Shown here piece by piece: positions 19,416 through 43,664 of a stretch of DNA of 64,000 bases (its first letter is position 1; each line of letters begins with the position of its first letter). The notes under the pieces are model-generated. The model had not been told where the DNA came from. It saw nothing but the letters and a program-made list of their open reading frames with translations, and searched no databases. Source of the DNA: Heliocybe sulcata (taxonomy: Eukaryota > Basidiomycota > Agaricomycetes > Gloeophyllales > Gloeophyllaceae); the NCBI GenBank assembly GCA_004369045.1, contig ML213507.1:1243324-1307323 (forward strand), in the 5' to 3' direction. The position numbers and the translations under genes are program-made.

Positions 19416-21958
19416 CTAGTCCACATCCATCTCAGATGGCCCCTTGGGCTCCTCCGCCTTCGCCTCCTCAGTCTTGGGTGGCGCCTGCTCCTGCTTCGGT
19501 GTCTCCGTCCCAGGCGCCGGTGTAGGCTTGGGCTTGGGCTTCGTCAGGATAGGCGTCGCGAAGTAGATGATCTCCTCCCTCTTCTTCGCAATCTCCTCGC
19601 TCTTGAGTACAGGATCGACATTCTTCGGCCGCTCACTCTGCCTCGCAATCTGGTCGTCAAGCCATTTCTGGATCGTCGCGCACTTCTCGACGATCGACTG
19701 CTTGTCCTTCTCGTCGATATGCGCGTACTTCTCGTCGCCCGACGTCGCGTAGCTCATGTACGTGTTAATCGTCTCGCGTAGCGCGCTCACATTCCTGCCC
19801 CGCTCCTCGGTCTCGCGCCAGCGGGTGACGATAGGGTTGCCGATCTGCTTGGCAGCGTCGAGGCGGGAGATGTACGCAGACTTCGTCGCGTCCTCGCCCT
19901 CTTCTGAGTACAGCCAGTCCTCAGACTCCTGCAGCTGCTTGAGTAGTGCCTCCTTCTCCGGCTGCTGGACGTAGGAAGCGTAGCGGTCATCAAGCTTGCC
20001 CCGCATGTCGTAGACGTACTCCTCAAGAGCATTTTTGGCATCCTGTGAATCACAGATGAGTAATCAGGCAGGCCAAGACTGGCATGAAACATGCGAACCT
20101 CGGTGTCCATCACCAACTTGTCAGCAGCGTGCATCTGCGCTTCTTCTTCCCGTAGCTTCTCCAGAAGGCTCTTGTCGAGAGCGCTATTGCCAACAACGAA
20201 GGGCACTTCCTTCTTGACGACCTTCTTCTTCTTCGGCTGCGCTTGCTGAGCCTCGCCATCGACCTCCATCGCCGCCTCCTCCTGCTCGACTGTCTCCTCA
20301 ATGTACGCTTGCTCAAAGCTCAAGATCCCGTGGGTATTCAGTCTGACCTTCAGCTTGACACATGTCATATCGCCGTTCGCATCCGCAGTGACATTCTTAG
20401 CCGTGAAGCGTGCGATCCAGGGGTTGACGCCGCCGGGCAGCTGCGACGGGTCCGCATAGGAAGCCTCGAGGTCGAATGCAGCCTTGCGGTAGAAAGTGAG
20501 CACCTTCGTGGAAGGAACGGTGTTGCCCTTGGGGAACACTACAAGCTCCGTGTCCTCATCGGGGTCACCCGGCGTACGCTCCCAAGATATCTTGATCGAG
20601 TACGGCTGAACGTCATGCATCGAGAACTCCCGCACGCGGAAGATGGGCGAGAGCATTGCGCAAGTGAAGGTCGCGCCACGCGCACATGCCTCGTCCTGGT
20701 TCAGTGTCGTCCTGAGTGTGTGGCTGGGGAATGCGCTTTGGATCTTCGCGCGCACAGCGGGAACACGAGTGCTACCACCGACGAGCTCGACAGAATCAAT
20801 CTTGTCCAACGGGACCTGTGCATCGGCAAGAGCCTGCTCAACGACGCCGGGAATGCGGTCGATCACGTGGGCAATAAGCTGCTCGTACTGGTCGCGGTGA
20901 AGCTTCGAAGAAGCATCGATGTCGTTCATGATGGATTCAACGGAAAGGTTGGCTTCAGGGTTCGCGGAAAGGATCTTCTTGAGGCGCTCGCAGCCGGCGG
21001 CCAGGCGGAAGGTTGCCTTCGGGTTCGAGAGAACATCGATCTTGTACTTCTCCTTGAACTCCTCGGCAAAGTGCTGTACGAGCGCATAGTCGATGTCCCG
21101 GCCGCCCAAGTGGCGGTCGTACGCAGTAGCCTTGACCGTCAGCTGACCCTTGGAGAAGGCGACAACCGTCACGGTCATATTCGAGTGTCCAACGTCAACG
21201 AAGACGACGTGCCGGGGGTTCTCCGCCTCGGGCAGGTCAGACTTCGTGATACCGTAGCCAAGGGCCACGGCTGTTGAGTCGTTGACCACACGCAAGACGT
21301 TCAAGTTGGCGATGGATGCAGCGTCAAGGAGGGCTCGCCGTTGGACATCAGTGTACCAGCCCGGGACCGCGATGACGACGTCGGTGACCCCCGTCTTCAG
21401 TTCATTCGCGGCGATGTCTCGTAGCTTGCCAAAGTACATAGCTACCAGCTGGGTTGCGGAGAATTGATGCTCCTCGTTTTGATACCGAACCTAGTATACC
21501 GTCAGACTCCACCCGACTAGATCTTGGGCCAGCACGCACCTTCACCCCGACGGTGCCATTCACGTCCAACAATTGAGCATTCAAAAACTTCTTCTCAACC
21601 TCCTGTATCTCGGGATCGTTGAGCGTTCGACCGATGAGTCTCTTGAGCGAGCCGATCGTATTTTTAAAATTGGACGTTTCCTGCGTCTTTGCGGATTCAC
21701 CGATAGCTCTCAGTTTCGACCCGAAACCGACGAGCGACCTACCACACTCTGTCAGTATACTGCATGATATCTGGAATAATATATAACGTACGGTGTAGCG
21801 CGATTAGACACCTCATTGACAATGATATCGATACCTCGATTTCTTGCAACACCGATCTATGGGCAGAAACCCAATGTCAACTGGAGTACTCGGCTGACAG
21901 AATCAATGCGGCACACCTTACTGTGCAGTGAACCAAAATCAACGCCGACGACGGCCAT
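19416..21958 (-). CDS. SSE1: Hsp110-family chaperone, nucleotide exchange factor for Hsp70
   Basis: Cytosolic Hsp70 nucleotide-exchange factor and holdase. Exons are 21917-21958, 21792-21856, 21540-21738, 20099-21490 and 19416-20042, giving 774 residues. The nucleotide-binding domain opens MAVVGVDFGSLHSK and contains VLRVVNDSTAVALGYG and VELVGGSTRVPAVR. The Hsp110 signature is the long acidic and lysine-rich insert in the substrate domain (EEAAMEVDGEAQQAQPKKKK, about residues 490-520), the three-helix C-terminal domain (LEEYVYDMRGKLDD onward) and an acidic end SEMDVD. Length and layout match yeast Sse1 rather than a canonical Hsp70, since there is no EEVD end. A stepwise heat-shock element lies 100-132 bp upstream of the start. 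No lesion is seen. Confidence 0.95.
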
Positions 21959-22056
21959 TACGATGAGAAGATTGTAAAGAAGTAAGGGGAGAAAGTTGGG
22001 GTACGCGACTCTGAGGAAAGGCCCTTTCGCGCATGCTCATTTTGATTGATTTCCTG

Positions 22057-22091
22057 TTTCGGCGGCGTTCTGGAGGATTCTACGGCGTTCT
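22057..22091 (-). promoter_or_regulatory. Step-type heat-shock element upstream of SSE1
   Basis: Four TTC triplets start at 22058, 22068, 22078 and 22088, exactly 10 bp apart (GAA on the coding strand). This fits the step-type heat-shock element (nTTCn units with 5-bp spacers) bound by Hsf1 trimers. It lies 100-132 bp upstream of the SSE1 start, a usual promoter distance. The family function makes heat-shock control expected; the spacing is read directly from sequence. Confidence 0.72.
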
Positions 22092-23013
22092 AAGTTGCAC
22101 CGCATTGCTACGTAGCGTGCGCAGAATGCTCTGCCAGCGGCTATGGTTGTTCTATTAATTGCTGCCTTCAGGCAAGTTAACATGGACATGGTGAGTCTCG
22201 AGAAGATATTTATTTGAGACTCGCATTGCCTGGAATGGCCAAATCAACATAGAAATGGGGACGCACATTTGTCGCGCTTCACGTCGCTTCGCGTTTGCCT
22301 GGCGGCTCCCACGCTTCGATAGTTCTCCGAGTGGCTGTCGGACACAAGTCGGACACGTTGCGATATCATTTAGATTCCTATCGATGCCTTGAGGACTCAG
22401 CAATGCGCATACCATGAGTTGTACTTACAGCTTTGAGAATGGCATATCAGTTCCCTGACATCAAATGCATCGATTACCACCAATTATCAGACGCTGAGTT
22501 GGGGTTGGACGTTCTCTTTCATTCGTACGGTGCTGCATCATTTCCTATACTGGATAAGAATAATGGTACGCATGCAATACGGACTATGTGCGGAGGCATA
22601 TTACTTGCAGCCTTCGCAGTGCAGGGTTAACTGAACTAGTTAAGGCCGCGTGTTTTCAAACACTCTGCCAACATGTCAAGACTGGACTCGCTGGTATACC
22701 CTAGACTCGTGACCAGCCCCTATGGCAGGACGCGTCTATCAGACGGTAGTTCTATGTTAATTACAAGAGGGGGAGGCAGCGGAACATGGGAAGGACAAGT
22801 GCGTCGGGTCTGGCGTAACTGCCATAGGGACTGGAAGCACTCGAAACACCGTGAGTACAGTAAGATTTCAAAGTCCGGTCATTTCCTTTCAAGGGCATAT
22901 TTTTGTATTTGTTTATACGATAAGTGGCGTGGTATGCGTCGACGCGTCTTCGACGCGTGCATGCTGACCCGATTATAGTACTCTGTTCTCTTCTTGGGTC
23001 TGTTCTTGCAGTG
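22092..23013. other. Intergenic, repeat-border region
   Basis: Between the SSE1 promoter and the truncated DUF6589 gene. No supported gene. Short open stretches are present but carry no recognisable motif. Confidence 0.35.
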
Positions 23014-23979
23014 ATGGCACCCACGAAACGGAGGAAGGACGACGAGAAGGAAAATTTCTTCGTGAACACGCTCTCCGCACCGCCCAAACGTCGTCGACGT
23101 GCTCTGCAATTAACCACTGAACAGCTACAGCTTGAGCAGCAGCGACACATCGAAGAACGCGAAGCACGGGGAGCGCTTGAGAGAAAGGATCGAGAACGCG
23201 AGGAAGAGGAGCAACAAATATTGGCTGCGCAAGCCGAACAGGACCTGGCCAATGCGCGCCTTGCGAACTTGCTTCGAGGGATACAGGCTGACGGCTTCAC
23301 GCTAAACACATTTCTAACTGCTCTACCGATCAGCAGATATCAGCACAGGCCTCGCGCTTCCTTGTCGCGCATGGCCACGAATTCTTAGTTACTCTGCACC
23401 GTAAGAAAGCTGCAGTTATGCAAGCATATGCAGCAGAGGTTGTTCACGAGGCCATACGGACAGAAGCACAAGCACTCGAGCGATACATGCATCCTGGCGA
23501 AGGGCAGAGCATCACAGATCTTCTGGAGTCCTGGTCTCTCCAACAATTGCTCGAAGATGCCAAGGATATGGCGCCGACTTTGTGTCGCTTTCTGCGCGAG
23601 CTTTGTATCAGCACGAAACATAAGTCAGCGCGGAGAGATACCGACTTGGTGGGTCTTACACAGCACTGCGCATAGAACATGACGACTAACAGCCAGATAG
23701 GTCCTTGCTACAGCACTGTCAATGCTCATACAAGCACGCAATGAGCGCGCTAACTTGTCGCAGAGCGTTCTCTGCATTTACCTGCTTGCGTGCGGCGCTT
23801 CACGATCCCTATTCGAAGTCCTACACCACGCAGGGTTTGCATCCTCCTATTCGAAGGCTGTACGCGACATCAAGCAGCTCAAGAACGAGCGCCTTGCGAA
23901 AGTTGCGGAGCTCGCGCGGACGCGAGCGTTCATGATAGTCTGGGATAATCTCAACATCGCATTCCGAGTCGGGGTCTAG
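23014..23979 (+). pseudogene. Truncated DUF6589-type gene
   Basis: 5' part of a multi-copy basidiomycete gene of unknown function that is usually found in repeat-rich regions. The start MAPTKRRKDDEKENFF is followed by a charged coiled coil rich in E, R and Q (about residues 35-90). A frame change of one base occurs near 23320, after LNTFLTAL, and the protein sense continues as QISAQASRFLVAHGHEFL. A GT-AG intron lies at 23649-23700. The downstream exon reads LSQSVLCIYLLACGASRS and FMIVWDNLNIAFRVG, the start of the conserved DUF6589 core. The sequence then ends abruptly at about 23973, where the family normally continues for several hundred residues. It is broken by the frame change and by the lost 3' part. 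Confidence 0.7.
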
Positions 23980-24115
23980 TAACTCTCGCTATCTGGCATA
24001 CGGTTTTTACCTTGTACATATGCTCTGCACCTAGGCTCTGGATAGTCTCCCTGCATACAGCAATTGTCGGGAGTGTTGCTGACTTTGTCTTCATATATGG
24101 TAAGTACGCAACATA

Positions 24116-24403
24116 CTAGCTTGCTCGTATAGGACTTACTTGATCAACCATCAGTGCTGTCAATGGCGACACTACTAGTCCGATGTCCGTCTCATCCTGA
24201 AGGAGAGGCAGGCTGAAACAGAGGGTCTTGCCACTACCTGTCCCAGCATCCACAATCATGTCCTCTCCCTTCAATATAGCTGCAGCAATCTTCAATTGCC
24301 AGGGAAATGGTCTCTTGCCTAGGAGAATGGCGGATCGGGCAGCAAGATCATTAAGTATAATAGTATCATCTGTATATCTTTTAACCTGAGAGGCTGCAAC
24401 CAT
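24116..24403 (-). pseudogene. RecQ-like helicase fragment
   Basis: About 95 codons of a DEAD/H-box helicase. Visible motifs are the region before motif I (KRPFPWQLKIAAAILKGED), Walker A (VDAGTGSGKTLCFSLPLL) and motif Ia (VVSPLTALMVDQ). It ends soon after motif Ia, where a full helicase needs 300 or more further residues, so it is a 5' fragment. RecQ-like genes of this type are numerous in Agaricomycete genomes and often lie near repeats. It is probably non-functional. Confidence 0.75.
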
Positions 24404-24989
24404 GGCCGGAGAGGAAGGGGGACTAGCCCACTGGAATCAATTTTCATTTTTGATCTATTTACGAGCCCCTGTCTGCAGCAGCTGCAGCAGAGAGAATATT
24501 GTGTCGCCACATTCATGTTGGCGGTGGCGCACCTTCCTCAAAAGGAAATGACCGGAGTTCCAAATCTCACTGCACTCGCTCATGATACAGTTGTACCAGA
24601 CCCTTTGTATATAATTCGTGCGTAGCACAAGTATCAAAGGGTCTGGTTACGAGACTAGGTATACCCGTACCTATGGATGTACCGCAGGCTTGAACCGTTT
24701 AATGTTCCAGATCAATAGTTCCGGATCTGGGTAAAGCATAGTATGCTGCCGCTGTAAGACGCTTCCTGATAGCCTACTCCTACTGAATTGGACTAAAAGT
24801 TGCCATAAATAACAATGAAGACACCCCCATTGGACAGAGCCTTCAAGCTGCGAACTTCAAGCATCGAAGTGGACATCAGAGAGCGCTGTGTGGACAACGT
24901 GATAGCTGGTCACACAACTTGACGGACTGTCACGCACGCGTATATCACGTGGTGGGCCACATTTGTGGCGAGGCTGCATTTGAGATGCC
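24404..24989. other. Repeat debris between helicase fragment and Mutator-like element
   Basis: No gene is supported. It contains the hairpin at 24595-24647 and AT-rich sequence leading up to the target duplication at 24990. Confidence 0.35.
24595..24647. repeat. Inverted repeat (hairpin), 15-bp arms
   Basis: The left arm accagaccctttgta pairs with the right arm near 24633-24647 (caaagggtctggt), with one mismatch region near the loop and about 23 bp between arms. It could be a short MITE-like end or a cruciform; no target duplication is obvious. Confidence 0.55.
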
Positions 24990-24998
24990 ACGGACTCT

Positions 24999-25094
24999 TA
25001 GGCTCGTGACCACCCTCTCGATCGAGATTGGGGCAGAATCTCTAATGAGAGGCTGGTCGATTTTGCGCCCGAAAAGCCGGGGCGTCAACTAACT
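24999..25094. repeat. Left terminal inverted repeat (96 bp)
   Basis: Begins TAGGCTCGTGACCACCC and ends GGGGCGTCAACTAACT. It is the exact reverse complement of 25681-25776. Confidence 0.92.
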
Positions 25095-25680
25095 GCTGGC
25101 GTCACAGCTGCCGAGGCCTGCCGAAAGCCACCGATCTACGATTTGTAGTCGAGTAAGATTTGCTTGTAGTAAAATAAGACATGCTTGTAGCGAAGTAACT
25201 ATTACTTGTAGTCTCAATACAAACACGTATAGTGGCGTGCATCGCGGCTGGGTCCCGCAATCTGCGCTCGCCTTCGTACACCATTGCCCTTTAATCACTA
25301 TATGCCTCATACTAATGGATAGACTGGATGGTATTCTACGGAAACTGGCAAAGGGTAGTCCGAGGAGCTTTCACTTGCTATTCGATACTATCATCCCGTC
25401 TAATCTTGCTCCGTCTCCGCAATTCATGGTGACTCTCTCTTGGCCGGAAAAGCTCAATGTCCAGCGTGTCTGTCTACTATGTTATCTGCTGACGATACTG
25501 AAGCCGGCAGCAAGGCAATGGCGGAGCGCGCAGAACCTTTTAAGTCCGAGAATACAGAGGTCATTTGTAGTCAGATCTGAATCGGATTTAGGGCAGGCAG
25601 AACTATTTCAGGGCAGGTCGAATTTACTTCAGGGCAGGTCATAATTTCGAGCTCAGCACCAGAATGTGGCGGTGGCGAGG

Positions 25681-25776
25681 AGTTAGTTGACGCCCCGGCT
25701 TTTCGGGCGCAAAATCGACCAGCCTCTCATTAGAGATTCTGCCCCAATCTCGATCGAGAGGGTGGTCACGAGCCTA
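25681..25776. repeat. Right terminal inverted repeat (96 bp)
   Basis: Exact reverse complement of 24999-25094, ending CGAGCCTA directly before the second copy of the 9-bp target duplication. Confidence 0.92.
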
Positions 25777-25983
25777 ACGGACTCTTCTTGGGTGGCCTTC
25801 TTGCTCGCTTCCGATATAATTAGTTCTGCAGTATTATTTAATATGTCTGTGCTTGCAAGACATGCCAATGTAGTAGATATCCATCCCGACAGAACCCATT
25901 CTCGACACTCGACGCTCAAACAGGGAAACCGCAGCTGGATACACCAGTCATGGATGTGTCACAGTGCTTCCAACATCATTATC

Positions 25984-28142
25984 TCATAGAATCAGCTTTT
26001 GTACCTCAGCATTACGTGGGACTATCGAGCACTTGAAGGGAGTCGGCCGGCTGACACACGGTATCCTAGATCAGCAACTCCAGCATCCATGAAAGAGCAT
26101 TAGACTTACACGACGAGCCCATCTGTATATGGAACGTCACCTTCTGGCTGATCTTTACGTTTCGAGATATCAAACGTCGCTAGAACGCGGGAGATGACAA
26201 TCCAGATGGCAGCGTCTGCAAAATGCCGGCCAGGACAGACACTATATAGCCGTTCACTCGTCAGGACGATAGACGTTTCGCGAACATCAGACTTACCGTC
26301 TGCCTGTCCCGAATGCTGTCATAGGGTACGCCCCTCTCCGGATGGAATCATCCGGATTTAAGAAGCGTTCGGGCTTGAATTTCTCAGGTTCCTCGTAGAC
26401 GCGCTCATCCATGTGCATGGCCCTATATGATACTGAGCATGTTCGAGGAAGTAACAAGATATTACAAGAAAGCGCTACCATGTATTCATTACTATAGTTG
26501 CACCTGGAGCCACATGCAATTAGCTGCATCATGACAGACGCTCGAAGGTTTCCGCTGACGACCGACCTTTGGGTATGAAATATCCGTCGTAAGTATCCGC
26601 TTCAGTGGTGGCATGCGAGACAGCTGGGCAAAGTCATACACTGTCTCGTCAATGCACGCAGTTATTCACGCTTACAGAGAGGCGTCACCGGCCGCCACCT
26701 CAAGATCTCCCAGCAAAGCGCCTCCACGTATGGCAGAGACGCTTTGTCCTCAAACATCGGCAACCTGCTAGGCCCAACAACTCTGTCGATCTCTTCCTGT
26801 GCTTTCTTCTGCGCATCGGGATACTGCGTCATTGCGAGAAAGAATGTATCGATTGCTCCGACAGTCTGGCACAAGTGAGCAGGAGCAGGACTTCGAATCT
26901 TACCTTACACTTACTGTATCCGCACCGGCTGTGACAGGCGTCAAGAAGAGGAGGTCCGCAGACACATGCACGTACCGTTGTAAGCCGCTCCAGCGATGCC
27001 TTTCACCATCTTATCCAGTGTACGACTGTCGTCTTTTGAGGCCTGTCGTCCCAGAAGCTGTGTTGTCATGCACTCGATCCCTGAGTCAGACAACTGCCAC
27101 GGGTCAGGAATACAGTATGCGTCAATGGCAGAGACAACTAACCATATTCGATTTTGTATAATCAAAGGGCACATCCTGCATCTCCGTCACGAGGTTATAG
27201 CATCTCTGCGCATAGGCCTTGAATTGCATGCCGGGCAGCCAAGATGGAAGCTTTTTCGCTAAGGCTGGGTCTCAGAACCATCGAATTGTGTGATTGAAAA
27301 CTGGGCCGACATACCTTCTGGGATAACATCAAGGATGGCAGCGCCAGGGAAACTAGAATCAGACATCATCCTCGTCGCTTGCTCGACTATCCGCACGAAG
27401 CGATCGTTGTCCTCAGCAATCTTGTATCCGTAGAGCGTAAGCATCATATTCGCTGCAGCAAAGCTGGACGGCAAGTAAGATCCTAAAATCTGGTTGATAT
27501 AAAGCTACGCACTGCTGGACGTGGTCCATGAACTTATCCGGAGTGCGCAGGAGCCTGATCAGGAGTTCGCGCGACTTCTCAGTGGTAGTAGGGGAATAAT
27601 ACGCGGCATTATCTGCTCGGAAAACTTGGTGGAAGAGACGTCTGTACGTTCGCCATTCACTACCATATGGCATGAAGGCAAAATGGAAATCGTAACCCAT
27701 CCTGACAAAGCGCAATCCAGCTGGAGACTCGCAGTCAAGCAAACATGGAGCTCACAGATTCAGCATGTGAAACGCCGGCCGGCTCGAGTATATGTTGGAA
27801 CGCTTCTCTAAGAGGTCATTCGTAATACTCGCTGAATTAATGATGATAACATCCTCATTCAAGAGACGGATGTGCATTATGTCACCTTAACCAGAGGCTC
27901 TTCATCACTGGACAGGACGCGGGACAGTTGTGTTACATACCATACTGTCGACCCCATGCGGTATACGTCAACCAAGGATACCGCGCAGGTACCTGGAAGT
28001 AGTTGCCTATGATCGGCCATGGTTTCGGTCCTGGAGGGTAGGGCAGGCTAAGAGGGTTCACATGTTGCTGACGATAATACTTCTTGACAATGACCAAGAG
28101 CGCAGCGAAGGCAGCAATAACGAGAGCGCCGACGACCGTCAT
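25984..28142 (-). CDS. Cytochrome P450 monooxygenase
   Basis: Membrane-anchored heme monooxygenase of 506 residues from 13 exons: 27941-28142, 27756-27885, 27513-27701, 27315-27463, 27143-27264, 26976-27093, 26915-26928, 26676-26865, 26567-26623, 26479-26503, 26297-26422, 26110-26241 and 25984-26050. An N-terminal membrane helix (VVGALVIAAFAALLVIV) is followed by the proline hinge LPYPPGPKPWPIIGN. The oxygen-binding I-helix AGADTT is split over exons 7 and 8. The ExxR motif is EILRW, the PERF motif is FKPERFLNPDD, and the heme-cysteine loop is FGTGRRVCPGRHF, split by an intron after GR. All essential motifs are intact. It resembles the large basidiomycete P450 groups annotated as O-methylsterigmatocystin oxidoreductase-like; its substrate is unknown. 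Exon 7 is only 14 bp. Confidence 0.92.
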
Positions 28143-29018: not shown

Positions 29019-31404
29019 ATGTCGACCAGCGGACTCAAGGCGATTGCTCCGGTGCCTACGGCCAATGACTTTCTGGATATTGTGCTGTCGAAAACCCAGA
29101 GGAAGACGCCGACCGTAAGTGGTGTATGCTTTAGTATTAGGAAGGAGGCAGTTAACTTTGCTGCTTTGCCCAGGTCATCCACAAAAACTTCAAGATTAGT
29201 AGGATCAGGAACTTTTACATGCGGAAAGTCAAGTTCACCCAAGATACATTCGAAGAGAAACTTGGCGCTATCCTAAATGAGTTCCCAATGCTTGATGTAA
29301 GAATCCACTATGCTTTTGCGCGAGCTGTTTCCTGATGCTGGTACAGGAATTGCACCCTTTCCTGGCCTCTTTGATGAACGTGCTTTATGACAAGAATCAC
29401 TACAAGCTTGCTCTGGGTCAGCTGCGGACGGCACGGCACCTAATCGACCAAGTAGCGAAGGATTATGTCCGGTTGCTCAAATTTGGCGACAGTTTATACC
29501 GTTGTAAGCAGTTAAAGAAGGCGGCATTGGGAAGGTGTGTGTATCCGTGATCTACATCTGCCTTGCTTGATGAGATGGAACAGAATGGCGACTATCATGA
29601 AACGCCAGAAAGATCCCCTCGCCTACCTTGAGCAAGTCCGGCAACACATCTCTCGTCTCCCCGCCATCGACCCCAACACTCGCACCCTCCTAATCTGCGG
29701 CTACCCGAATGTCGGCAAATCGTCCTTCATCAACAAGGTAACCCGCGCGGACGTCGACGTCCAACCTTACGCCTTCACTACGAAATCTCTCTTTGTCGGT
29801 CACCTAGACTACAAGTATCTGCGATGGCAGGTTATTGACACTCCTGGAATCCTCGACCACCCCCTCGAGGACATGAACACGATCGAGATGCAAAGTATCA
29901 CCGCACTCGCGCATCTCAAATCATGCATCCTGTACTTCATGGACTTGAGCGAGCAGTGCGGGTACAGCGTTGAGGCGCAGTGCAAGCTCTTTCACTCAAT
30001 CAAGCCCCTCTTCGCCAACAAGCCTGTCGTCCTCGTCATTAACAAGATCGACGTCACCCGTCTGGACGATCTGGACGCGACAAACAGGGCACTCGTGCAG
30101 GAGATCATCGACACCGAGAACGTCGTTTGCGTGCAGGTCTCGTGCTACTCCGAAGAGGGCGTGATGGAGCTGAAGAACAAGGCCTGCGACGCATTGCTTG
30201 CCCACCGCGTTGACTCGAAGATGAAGGGCAGTAAGGTCAACTCGATTATCAACCGCATTCATGTTGCGCAACCCAAGGCGCGGGATGATCTCGTCAGGGA
30301 GCCGTTCATCCCTGAAGCAGTGAAGAACAAGAAGAAGTATGATAAAAACGACCCTGAGAGAAGGAGACTCGAGAGGGACATCGAGGCCGAAGAAGGAGGT
30401 GCTGGCGTGTATAACATGAATATCAAAAGTGAGTTGTCGGGATCAGTTCTCTTTACACTGGCCCTTATGATACTCCCTGTGGTTCAGAGAACTACATGCT
30501 CGCAGACCCCGAGTGGAAGATGGACGTCATACCCGAGATCATGGACGGCAAGAATGTTGCGGACTTCATTGATCCCGATATTGCCGACAAGCTTGAGGCG
30601 CTTGAGCGGGAAGAGGAGAAGCTGCAGGCAGAAGGCTTCTACGACAACGACCAGGACATTGTGAGCTTGTTACGCGTTTTGAAGCCGAAGTGGCCCTGGC
30701 TCATCGTATCACTTAGATGGACTCAGAAGACGAGCGCGAAGCCGAGGAAGCGAAGGTCGCGCTAGACGCCAAGCTGCGCTCTCAACATACTAAAAAGTCG
30801 ATGAAACACTCAGCCCGCCTACCACGCACAGCAGGCCTGCGCACGCTCTCCGAGTTGACCACTGAGCTCACAAAAGCCGGTTTGGACCCAAGCCGGATAC
30901 AGGAGCGCGCAGAGATGCTCGCAAAGGTCCGCAGCGAGCAGCGGAAGCGCAAGAGGGACGACGAAATGGACGTGGATATGGACGGCGAGGAGGCGGAGGG
31001 CGACTGGATGGACGTGGATGGCGAGGACTCGCCGAATAAGCGGGTGAAGGCTAACTCTGGGGCCGCGGTTACCAAGGGGAAGAGGGAGCCGCGGTCGAAC
31101 AGGCAGCTTGCTGGAATGCGGGACGAAGCGGTACGTGATGTCAGCTGGATGATTGCAGCGATGTGTTCTGATGAGGTTGGTGTTTACAGCAAGCGTCGAA
31201 AGCCGTCAAGCTACGGAACCTTGGGCAGAGAGAGCGGAATATGCAGGCGAGAGCGGGAGAATCGGATCGGCATATCAGGGTCAAGCTGGTATGTCCTTAT
31301 TCAATTTTCAGCAGTGCGCCTTCATTGCTCATGCGCACTGCGACTTGCAGCCCAAACATCTGTTCTCTGGGAAGCGGAAGATGGGCAAGACGGACCGGAG
31401 ATGA
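29019..31404 (+). CDS. NOG1: Nucleolar GTP-binding protein 1
   Basis: Essential GTPase for 60S ribosomal subunit maturation, in nucleolus and nucleus. Eight exons (29019-29114, 29174-29296, 29347-29534, 29584-30428, 30488-30660, 30717-31130, 31190-31288, 31351-31404) encode 663 residues. The N-terminal helical domain ([29 protein letters not shown]) leads into the Obg-like GTPase domain: G1 GYPNVGKSS, a switch region with [10 protein letters not shown]3 DTPGI and G4 NKID. The C-terminal half is charged, with [15 protein letters not shown], acidic [19 protein letters not shown] and a basic end [17 protein letters not shown], as in yeast Nog1. The start codon has the context CCACCATGTC. Length matches the family. 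Confidence 0.95.
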
Positions 31405-43029: not shown

Positions 43030-43664
43030 NNNNNNNNNNNNNNNNNNNNNNNNNNNNNNNNNNNNNNNNNNNNNNNNNNNNNNNNNNNNNNNNNNNNNNN
43101 NNNNNNNNNNNNNNNNNNNNNNNNNNNNNNNNNNNNNNNNNNNNNNNNNNNNNNNNNNNNNNNNNNNNNNNNNNNNNNNNNNNNNNNNNNNNNNNNNNNN
43201 NNNNNNNNNNNNNNNNNNNNNNNNNNNNNNNNNNNNNNNNNNNNNNNNNNNNNNNNNNNNNNNNNNNNNNNNNNNNNNNNNNNNNNNNNNNNNNNNNNNN
43301 NNNNNNNNNNNNNNNNNNNNNNNNNNNNNNNNNNNNNNNNNNNNNNNNNNNNNNNNNNNNNNNNNNNNNNNNNNNNNNNNNNNNNNNNNNNNNNNNNNNN
43401 NNNNNNNNNNNNNNNNNNNNNNNNNNNNNNNNNNNNNNNNNNNNNNNNNNNNNNNNNNNNNNNNNNNNNNNNNNNNNNNNNNNNNNNNNNNNNNNNNNNN
43501 NNNNNNNNNNNNNNNNNNNNNNNNNNNNNNNNNNNNNNNNNNNNNNNNNNNNNNNNNNNNNNNNNNNNNNNNNNNNNNNNNNNNNNNNNNNNNNNNNNNN
43601 NNNNNNNNNNNNNNNNNNNNNNNNNNNNNNNNNNNNNNNNNNNNNNNNNNNNNNNNNNNNNNNN
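43030..43664. other. Assembly gap, 635 N
   Basis: Run of N from 43030 to 43664. The left flank is AT-rich (ttatattgt), so the gap may hide a repeat. Any gene crossing it cannot be read. Confidence 0.99.

Follow-up and report, generated by a model that had tools for sequence, protein, structure and literature searches.

The window analysed here is a 64,000-nucleotide stretch of the Heliocybe sulcata genome, located on contig C5 of an assembly of 31.6 Mb in 51 contigs. Window positions 43030-43664 read as N. The window contains a 778 bp element with long terminal inverted repeats (24999-25776, hereafter the focal element), flanked by long open frames of an HSP70-family gene (19787-21490, minus strand) and a NOG1-like GTPase gene (29516-30664, plus strand). 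Its features are as follows.

24990-24998, plus strand: left target site duplication ACGGACTCT, read directly and identical to the right copy
24999-25094, plus strand: left terminal inverted repeat, 96 bp, starting TAGGCTCGTGACCACC, complementary to the right repeat at 96/96 positions
25143-25213, plus strand: subterminal tandem array with TTGTAGT-like motifs (period 21 bp, 3.4 copies; Tandem Repeats Finder)
25195-25593, plus strand: putative remnant of a transposon-borne helicase gene, from its 5' part (tblastn with the protein of the 1188-bp family described below)
25586-25638, plus strand: second subterminal array, ATTTCAGGGCAGG, 21-bp period, 2.6 copies (Tandem Repeats Finder)
25681-25776, minus strand: right terminal inverted repeat, 96 bp, complementary to the left repeat at 96/96 positions
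25777-25785, plus strand: right target site duplication ACGGACTCT, read directly

Structure of the focal element

The identical 96-bp inverted repeats and the 9-bp duplication reported in an earlier, sequence-only reading of this DNA are both confirmed. When slightly extended, the arms pair over 103 nt at 98%. A tenth base (T) beside the duplication repeats too; the length of 9 bp is nonetheless set by the symmetry of the TAGG..CCTA ends and by the relatives of the element. Given the base composition, a 9-bp repeat would arise by chance at one fixed pair of sites with a probability of about 3e-6, and a scan of the window for TAG.CT.G ends bordered by an exact 9-bp duplication returned exactly two elements, the focal element and a neighbour (el2), with none of 200 Markov-1 resampled windows being positive.

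The TTGTAGT motif occurs four times in the focal element against 0.10 expected, three of them within the array at 25143-25213, and similar arrays lie equally far from one end in two relatives (C26 and C7); the array is absent from el2. These motifs are candidate protein-binding sites. The motif of the ATTTCAGGGCAGG array was not found in the eight other elements checked, and there is no Rfam match in window positions 22000-27000.

A second element lies upstream

The sequence-only reading did not mention el2, which has like ends and a duplication of its own and lies 341 bp upstream of the focal element.

22693-22701, plus strand: left target site duplication of el2, GGTATACCC
22702-24657, plus strand: el2, 1956 bp, with ends TAGACTCGTGACCAG / TAGTCTCGTAACCAG forming a 20-bp imperfect inverted repeat with 3 mismatches
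22828-23346, plus strand: similar to the N-terminal region of the DUF6589 gene of the C9 element (32% amino acid identity over 176)
23701-23973, plus strand: DUF6589-gene fragment, upstream of the Pfam domain (74.7% amino acid identity over 91 residues to C9)
24119-24436, minus strand: 5' part of a RecQ-type helicase gene (PF00270, E 3.3e-13), convergent with the DUF6589 fragment
24658-24666, plus strand: right target site duplication of el2, GGTATACCC

The DUF6589 fragment at 23701-23973 carries the motif FMIVWDNLNI and has no Pfam match on its own. The el2 helicase matches RecQ chains in PDB (E 1.2e-8) and TIGR00614 recQ_fam (E 1.2e-12, which for a fragment falls far under the whole-protein cut-off), and it is 55.8% identical to the C9 helicase over 95 residues. 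Relative to C9, el2 lacks the 3' parts of both genes. It is probably a second deletion derivative, closer than the focal element to the full-length element at C9:894821-900607.

Related elements elsewhere in the genome

Search of the genome with the whole focal element gave 39 matches, of which the closest (C10:182011-182844, C8:513717-514307 and C2:2142415-2142650) align in pieces at 75-86%. There is no close copy of the whole element in the assembly; the nearest one shows 155 differences over 756 aligned positions, with a further 100 gap columns. The terminal pattern TAGNCTCGTNACCA, which is exact at both ends of the focal element and of el2, has 39 exact occurrences among the matches listed, with about 4 expected (2 x 31.6 Mb, uniform composition). 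With one mismatch allowed, the counts (78+78) are barely above those of a reversed-pattern control (68+74), and we therefore used only exact hits and paired ends. Further copies of the end sequence, for which the sequence-only reading had proposed a search, exist in the genome.

Both ends were read for ten elements: the focal element, el2, C10a, C1a, C10b, C1b, C26, C7, C9 and C11. Perfect 9-bp duplications flank eight of them, the focal element included; C7 has none, and in C11 the two copies agree at 8/9 bases. We note that el2 and C9 are not fully independent tests, since el2 was chosen by its ends and duplication, and the duplication of C9 served to place its far end. C8, which has lost its left end and has a stretch matching 8/9 bases of the right flank about 60 bp outside, was left out of the ten, as were the single-ended C2, C6, C42, C50 and C7:1356774. 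The terminal repeats are 92-98 bp long in C10a, C1a, C10b and C1b, and 20-21 bp in el2, C26 and C7. The earlier description of the focal element as a non-autonomous element with terminal inverted repeats is therefore upheld by related copies elsewhere, most of which have their own 9-bp duplication, and the focal element is a real mobile element.

The genome also contains micro-elements of 70-78 bp that consist almost only of two facing ends (C1:308617-308686, C6:1011762-1011836, C23:139702-139779 and C11:185655-185730). Those on C1, C6 and C23 were located by the terminal pattern, and the C11 one (L017:2656-2731) was read directly, being 76 bp long and flanked by CGTACCGCG/CGTACCGTG, which agree at 8/9 bases. 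Each 96-bp repeat of the focal element has an internal imperfect inverted repeat, GACCACCCTCTC / GAGAGGCTGGTC (window 25008-25058), and the left repeat, taken as single-stranded DNA, folds better than all of 200 shuffles (z -2.74). In having its own inverted repeat and a better-than-shuffle fold, a single focal end resembles these micro-elements.

A helicase-gene remnant in the focal element

The interior of the focal element has an open frame of 183 amino acids, whose best conserved core lies at about 25315-25497; the frame itself has no Pfam match. It aligns with the protein of the 1188-bp family at 34% amino acid identity (tblastn, E 4.6e-12), and the same query retrieves the helicases of el2 (E 8.1e-6) and C9 (E 4e-4, 32% over 68 amino acids). 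The family frame (L015:3115-3672, minus strand, 186 amino acids) continues into SGCGTGKT, which is Walker-A-like, and IIISPLKRLQANQV, and matches PF00270 DEAD with E 2.1e-5 and 24.7 bits, against a cut-off of 26. The simplest reading of these alignments is that a helicase gene survives in the focal element as its 5' part. The sequence-only reading had held that no transposase is inside; none is there, yet the remnant of a helicase gene is.

Two other origins of the frame were considered. One is a captured host gene, which was rejected because, of eight genome matches to the core (E up to 1, among the best candidates scored), seven fall within elements with both ends read, and the remaining one, on C6, lies beside a single end, about 1.5 kb inward of it, where the sequence is 98.8% identical to that of the C7 element. 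The other is an independent small protein gene, considered for the conservation at protein level and rejected because the 1188-bp family frame continues into the helicase.

Substitutions in the frame differ with the distance compared. Between families dN is well below dS, with amino acids better kept than silent sites (dS 0.70 and dN 0.19 for the focal element and C10a; dS 1.22 and dN 0.25 for C1b and C6), and in the six remaining comparisons with the focal frame dS is saturated. Four near-identical pairs have no synonymous changes and, by rate, 1-2 non-synonymous ones, and so give no sign of constraint after the deletions. DUF6589 has no tblastn match in the focal element at E 0.05, which is unsurprising for a deletion product, yet gives no support.

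A full-length element pairs DUF6589 with a RecQ-type helicase

The element at C9:894821-900607 is 5787 bp long and has CTTACGAGC flanking both sides. Its inverted ends are short and imperfect, with 7 mismatches in 20, and differ from the TAGNCTCGTNACCA pattern by one mismatch and three mismatches respectively. On the plus strand it encodes, in several frames, a RecQ-type helicase, which matches DEAD and Helicase_C in Pfam, RecQ, RECQ5, WRN and BLM chains in PDB, and, piecewise, TIGR00614 as its best match (E 1.4e-22). Convergent with it on the minus strand is DUF6589, matched in two pieces (E 2e-66 and 3.6e-29). The DUF6589 frame has one in-frame TGA, and is either broken or crossed by an unrecognised intron.

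PF20231 (DUF6589) has six matches in the genome at loci above the cut-off: two on C9, one each on C16 and C31, and two on C43. On C31 the match stops about 1 kb short of the contig end, those on C43 lie within 1.4 kb of the contig start, and the matches cover complementary parts of the model, so C31 and C43 probably represent one gene. On that basis, a convergent helicase-like frame accompanies DUF6589 at all three loci; counted separately, it does so at three of four. The helicase-like frame is strong at one locus (C9) and weak at two. At C16 it scores 18 bits to DEAD against a cut-off of 26 and matches the C9 helicase with E 1.5e-4, and the DUF6589 match there covers only model positions 9-181. 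At C43 it has no Pfam helicase match and is recognised by eye from a RecQ-like motif, QEIGRTARNG, which we take to be motif VI-like; at C31, the stretch read near the contig end shows none. DEAD-type matches are rare across the 31.6 Mb genome (77 candidates, 36 scored, 41 matches), which makes a helicase unlikely as a chance neighbour of DUF6589. The pairing at C16, C31 and C43 is drawn from gene frames, with bounded ends known only for C9.

Pfam gives the function of DUF6589 as unknown, and the C9 copy lies inside a bounded mobile element. No known transposase was found among the DUF6589 proteins in Pfam or NCBIfam. One C9 DUF6589 piece used as a query gave no PDB match and no confirmed relatives among viral contigs and genome contigs, and the literature searched does not mention DUF6589. 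The three DUF6589 loci have DN and GDQ/GDG motifs in common, with a possible later E.

Origin and mobilisation of the focal element

We consider it likely that the focal element, itself non-autonomous, arose by internal deletion from a DNA transposon whose full-length members have convergent RecQ-type helicase and DUF6589 (PF20231) genes. The ends, the duplications, the helicase remnant, the gene pairing in C9 and the homology between el2 and C9 are all shown here. Against this interpretation, the likeness between the focal element and C9 is limited to about 14 terminal bases, duplications of 9 bp and a distantly related helicase, and the C9 ends are short and imperfect against the perfect 96-bp ends of the focal element. 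A full-length member of the focal element's own subfamily was not found in the genome.

Within this interpretation DUF6589 is probably the transposase, judging by elimination and by the common DN and GDQ/GDG motifs. The helicase may participate in transposition, and some present DUF6589 gene may still serve the focal copy. The focal element would then presumably be mobilised in trans by the DUF6589 transposase, perhaps with help from the helicase. The transposase would recognise the common terminus TAGNCTCGTNACCA, perhaps also subterminal TTGTAG arrays, excise the element and join it to the target via staggered cuts 9 bp apart, which would give rise to the 9-bp duplications; the helicase may help to open the ends or to repair the donor site. 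If the role of DUF6589 is confirmed, this domain gains a testable function, and it becomes possible to ask by experiment why a cut-and-paste element should have a RecQ helicase of its own. The two neighbouring deletion derivatives in the window are natural substrates.

The nearest published lineage is AcademH (Kojima 2020, Mob DNA 11:15), and the chances that our group belongs to it appear to us evenly balanced. In that case DUF6589 would be Pfam's name for the transposase of Academ, a reading that is compatible with a two-gene RecQ and DUF6589 transposon and would only reduce its novelty. The title of that work, which PMC10045372, PMC8290104 and PMC12210899 cite, presents AcademH as a helicase-encoding lineage of Academ DNA transposons in animals and fungi, and a passage of PMC10799480 describes it as low in copy number in Basidiomycota, Ascomycota and Mucoromycota. 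The likeness is thus that of a helicase gene in a fungal DNA transposon, here a RecQ-type helicase in C9 and el2; AcademH is represented in this comparison only by the descriptions in citing papers, and no link between DUF6589 and Academ was seen here. Putative non-autonomous MULE and Academ elements are noted side by side in a mushroom genome in a passage of PMC8290104, which suggests that the two may be readily confused.

A bolder proposal, which we put forward tentatively and regard as less probable than membership of AcademH, is that DUF6589 would be the transposase of an unrecognised fungal superfamily of DNA transposons, marked by TAGNCTCGTNACCA ends, duplications of 9 bp and a RecQ helicase that regularly accompanies it in convergent orientation, with the long-repeat elements and micro-elements as its non-autonomous offspring. 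If so, the 70-78 bp fold-back micro-elements and the elements with long terminal repeats may sit under Mutator in fungal annotations.

The sequence-only reading had called the focal element a Mutator-like non-autonomous element moved by a MULE transposase, on the grounds that long repeats with a 9-bp duplication are characteristic of such elements. Passages of PMC6446971 give MULEs duplications of 8-11 bp and often long repeats. The 9-bp duplication and 96-bp repeats do fit this, the group shares with Mutator-like elements the occurrence of deletion derivatives, and there are five PF10551 (MULE-domain) loci in the genome. We nevertheless consider this assignment improbable. No MULE-transposase element with TAGGCTCGTGACCAC ends is present in the PF10551 stretches read, four of five of which are incomplete (a contig end truncates L034, and L035-L037 were read in part); a facing pair of TAGGCTCGTGACCACC-like ends occurs at none of the five loci. 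Searches for a bounded element around the MULE domain, with matching ends and an 8-11 bp duplication, gave one weak 8-bp candidate at each of three of the five loci and no candidates in one shuffle of each locus. The coding remnants in the group are instead those of a helicase and DUF6589, none of 13 proteins scanned with Pfam has a MULE match at E up to 5, and like ends sit on the DUF6589 and RecQ element, C9. The sequence-only reading had proposed looking for a full-length relative with a MULE transposase; the full-length C9 encodes DUF6589 and RecQ, and the Mutator label is not sustained. Non-autonomous elements with 9-bp duplications are easily called Mutator when judged by their ends alone, and it is the coding remnants and the full-length relative that point to a transposon of two genes, one for a RecQ helicase and one for DUF6589.

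Other long inverted repeats are present near two of the MULE-domain loci (L036:1926-4484, 161 nt at 95%, and L035:2030-3783, 78 nt at 94%). They do not enclose the domain, and no flush duplication was seen by eye in their flanks.

Kolobok elements insert at TTAA, and this sequence is in none of the eight perfect duplications, all of which are 9 bp. A place in KolobokH, or in any other RecQ-bearing Kolobok lineage, is accordingly very unlikely for our group, even though the RecQ helicase of C9 fits KolobokH, which according to passages of PMC9587614 encodes a RecQ helicase and is known only from fungi; the same source describes a red alga Kolobok with the RecQ helicase on the complementary strand. 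The lack of a known-transposase match for the DUF6589 proteins in Pfam or NCBIfam also argues against Kolobok. A RecQ helicase in a fungal DNA transposon is thus what our group has in common with KolobokH as described there, and the two differ in that our group has 9-bp duplications without TTAA, separate convergent genes, and DUF6589 with no recognised Kolobok transposase. Subtelomeric RecQ genes also occur in fungi, and the passages of PMC4522978 that describe them do not assign them to elements bounded in this way. We give next to no credence to a chance or otherwise non-mobile inverted repeat or a segmental duplication, which would agree with the lack of a close whole-element copy and does account for one pair of relatives (C42 and C50), given the perfect 9-bp duplication of the focal element and the relatives, whose flanks differ and which have 9-bp duplications of their own.

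Recent activity

The sequence-only reading took the perfect ends to suggest recent activity in this genome. The focal ends are identical and those of C10a differ at 1/98, while between the two elements the ends agree only to 87-88%, so either each insertion is young or the ends are kept alike by conversion. Perfect ends are consistent with a young insertion, but for the focal copy recent activity is only suggested, its closest relative being as distant as noted above. Empty sites, also proposed as a check, were not found in this one assembly. The 1188-bp family is better evidence of recent spread than the focal copy: its three copies occupy three sites, each with its own duplication, and differ at 6/1072, 15/1072 and 19/1188 positions, of which 5, 14 and 17 are transitions.

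Single ends

Several ends occur singly. At C42:93239 (L040) and C50:28857 (L039), one end of the 1188-bp family, over about 354 bp, lies beside a common flank, ATCCTTACCCAT, and on account of this flank the two appear to be one insertion copied by segmental duplication. A lone 40-bp end on C7 (L041:8736-8775, C7:1356735-1356774) directly follows a long frame that by eye resembles a Dicer gene. On C6 (C6:96898, L042 from 899), in the part of the stretch that was read, long minus-strand frames come after an element end and a helicase remnant; by eye they look like a Helitron (PIF1-type helicase and Rep), possibly a nested insertion.
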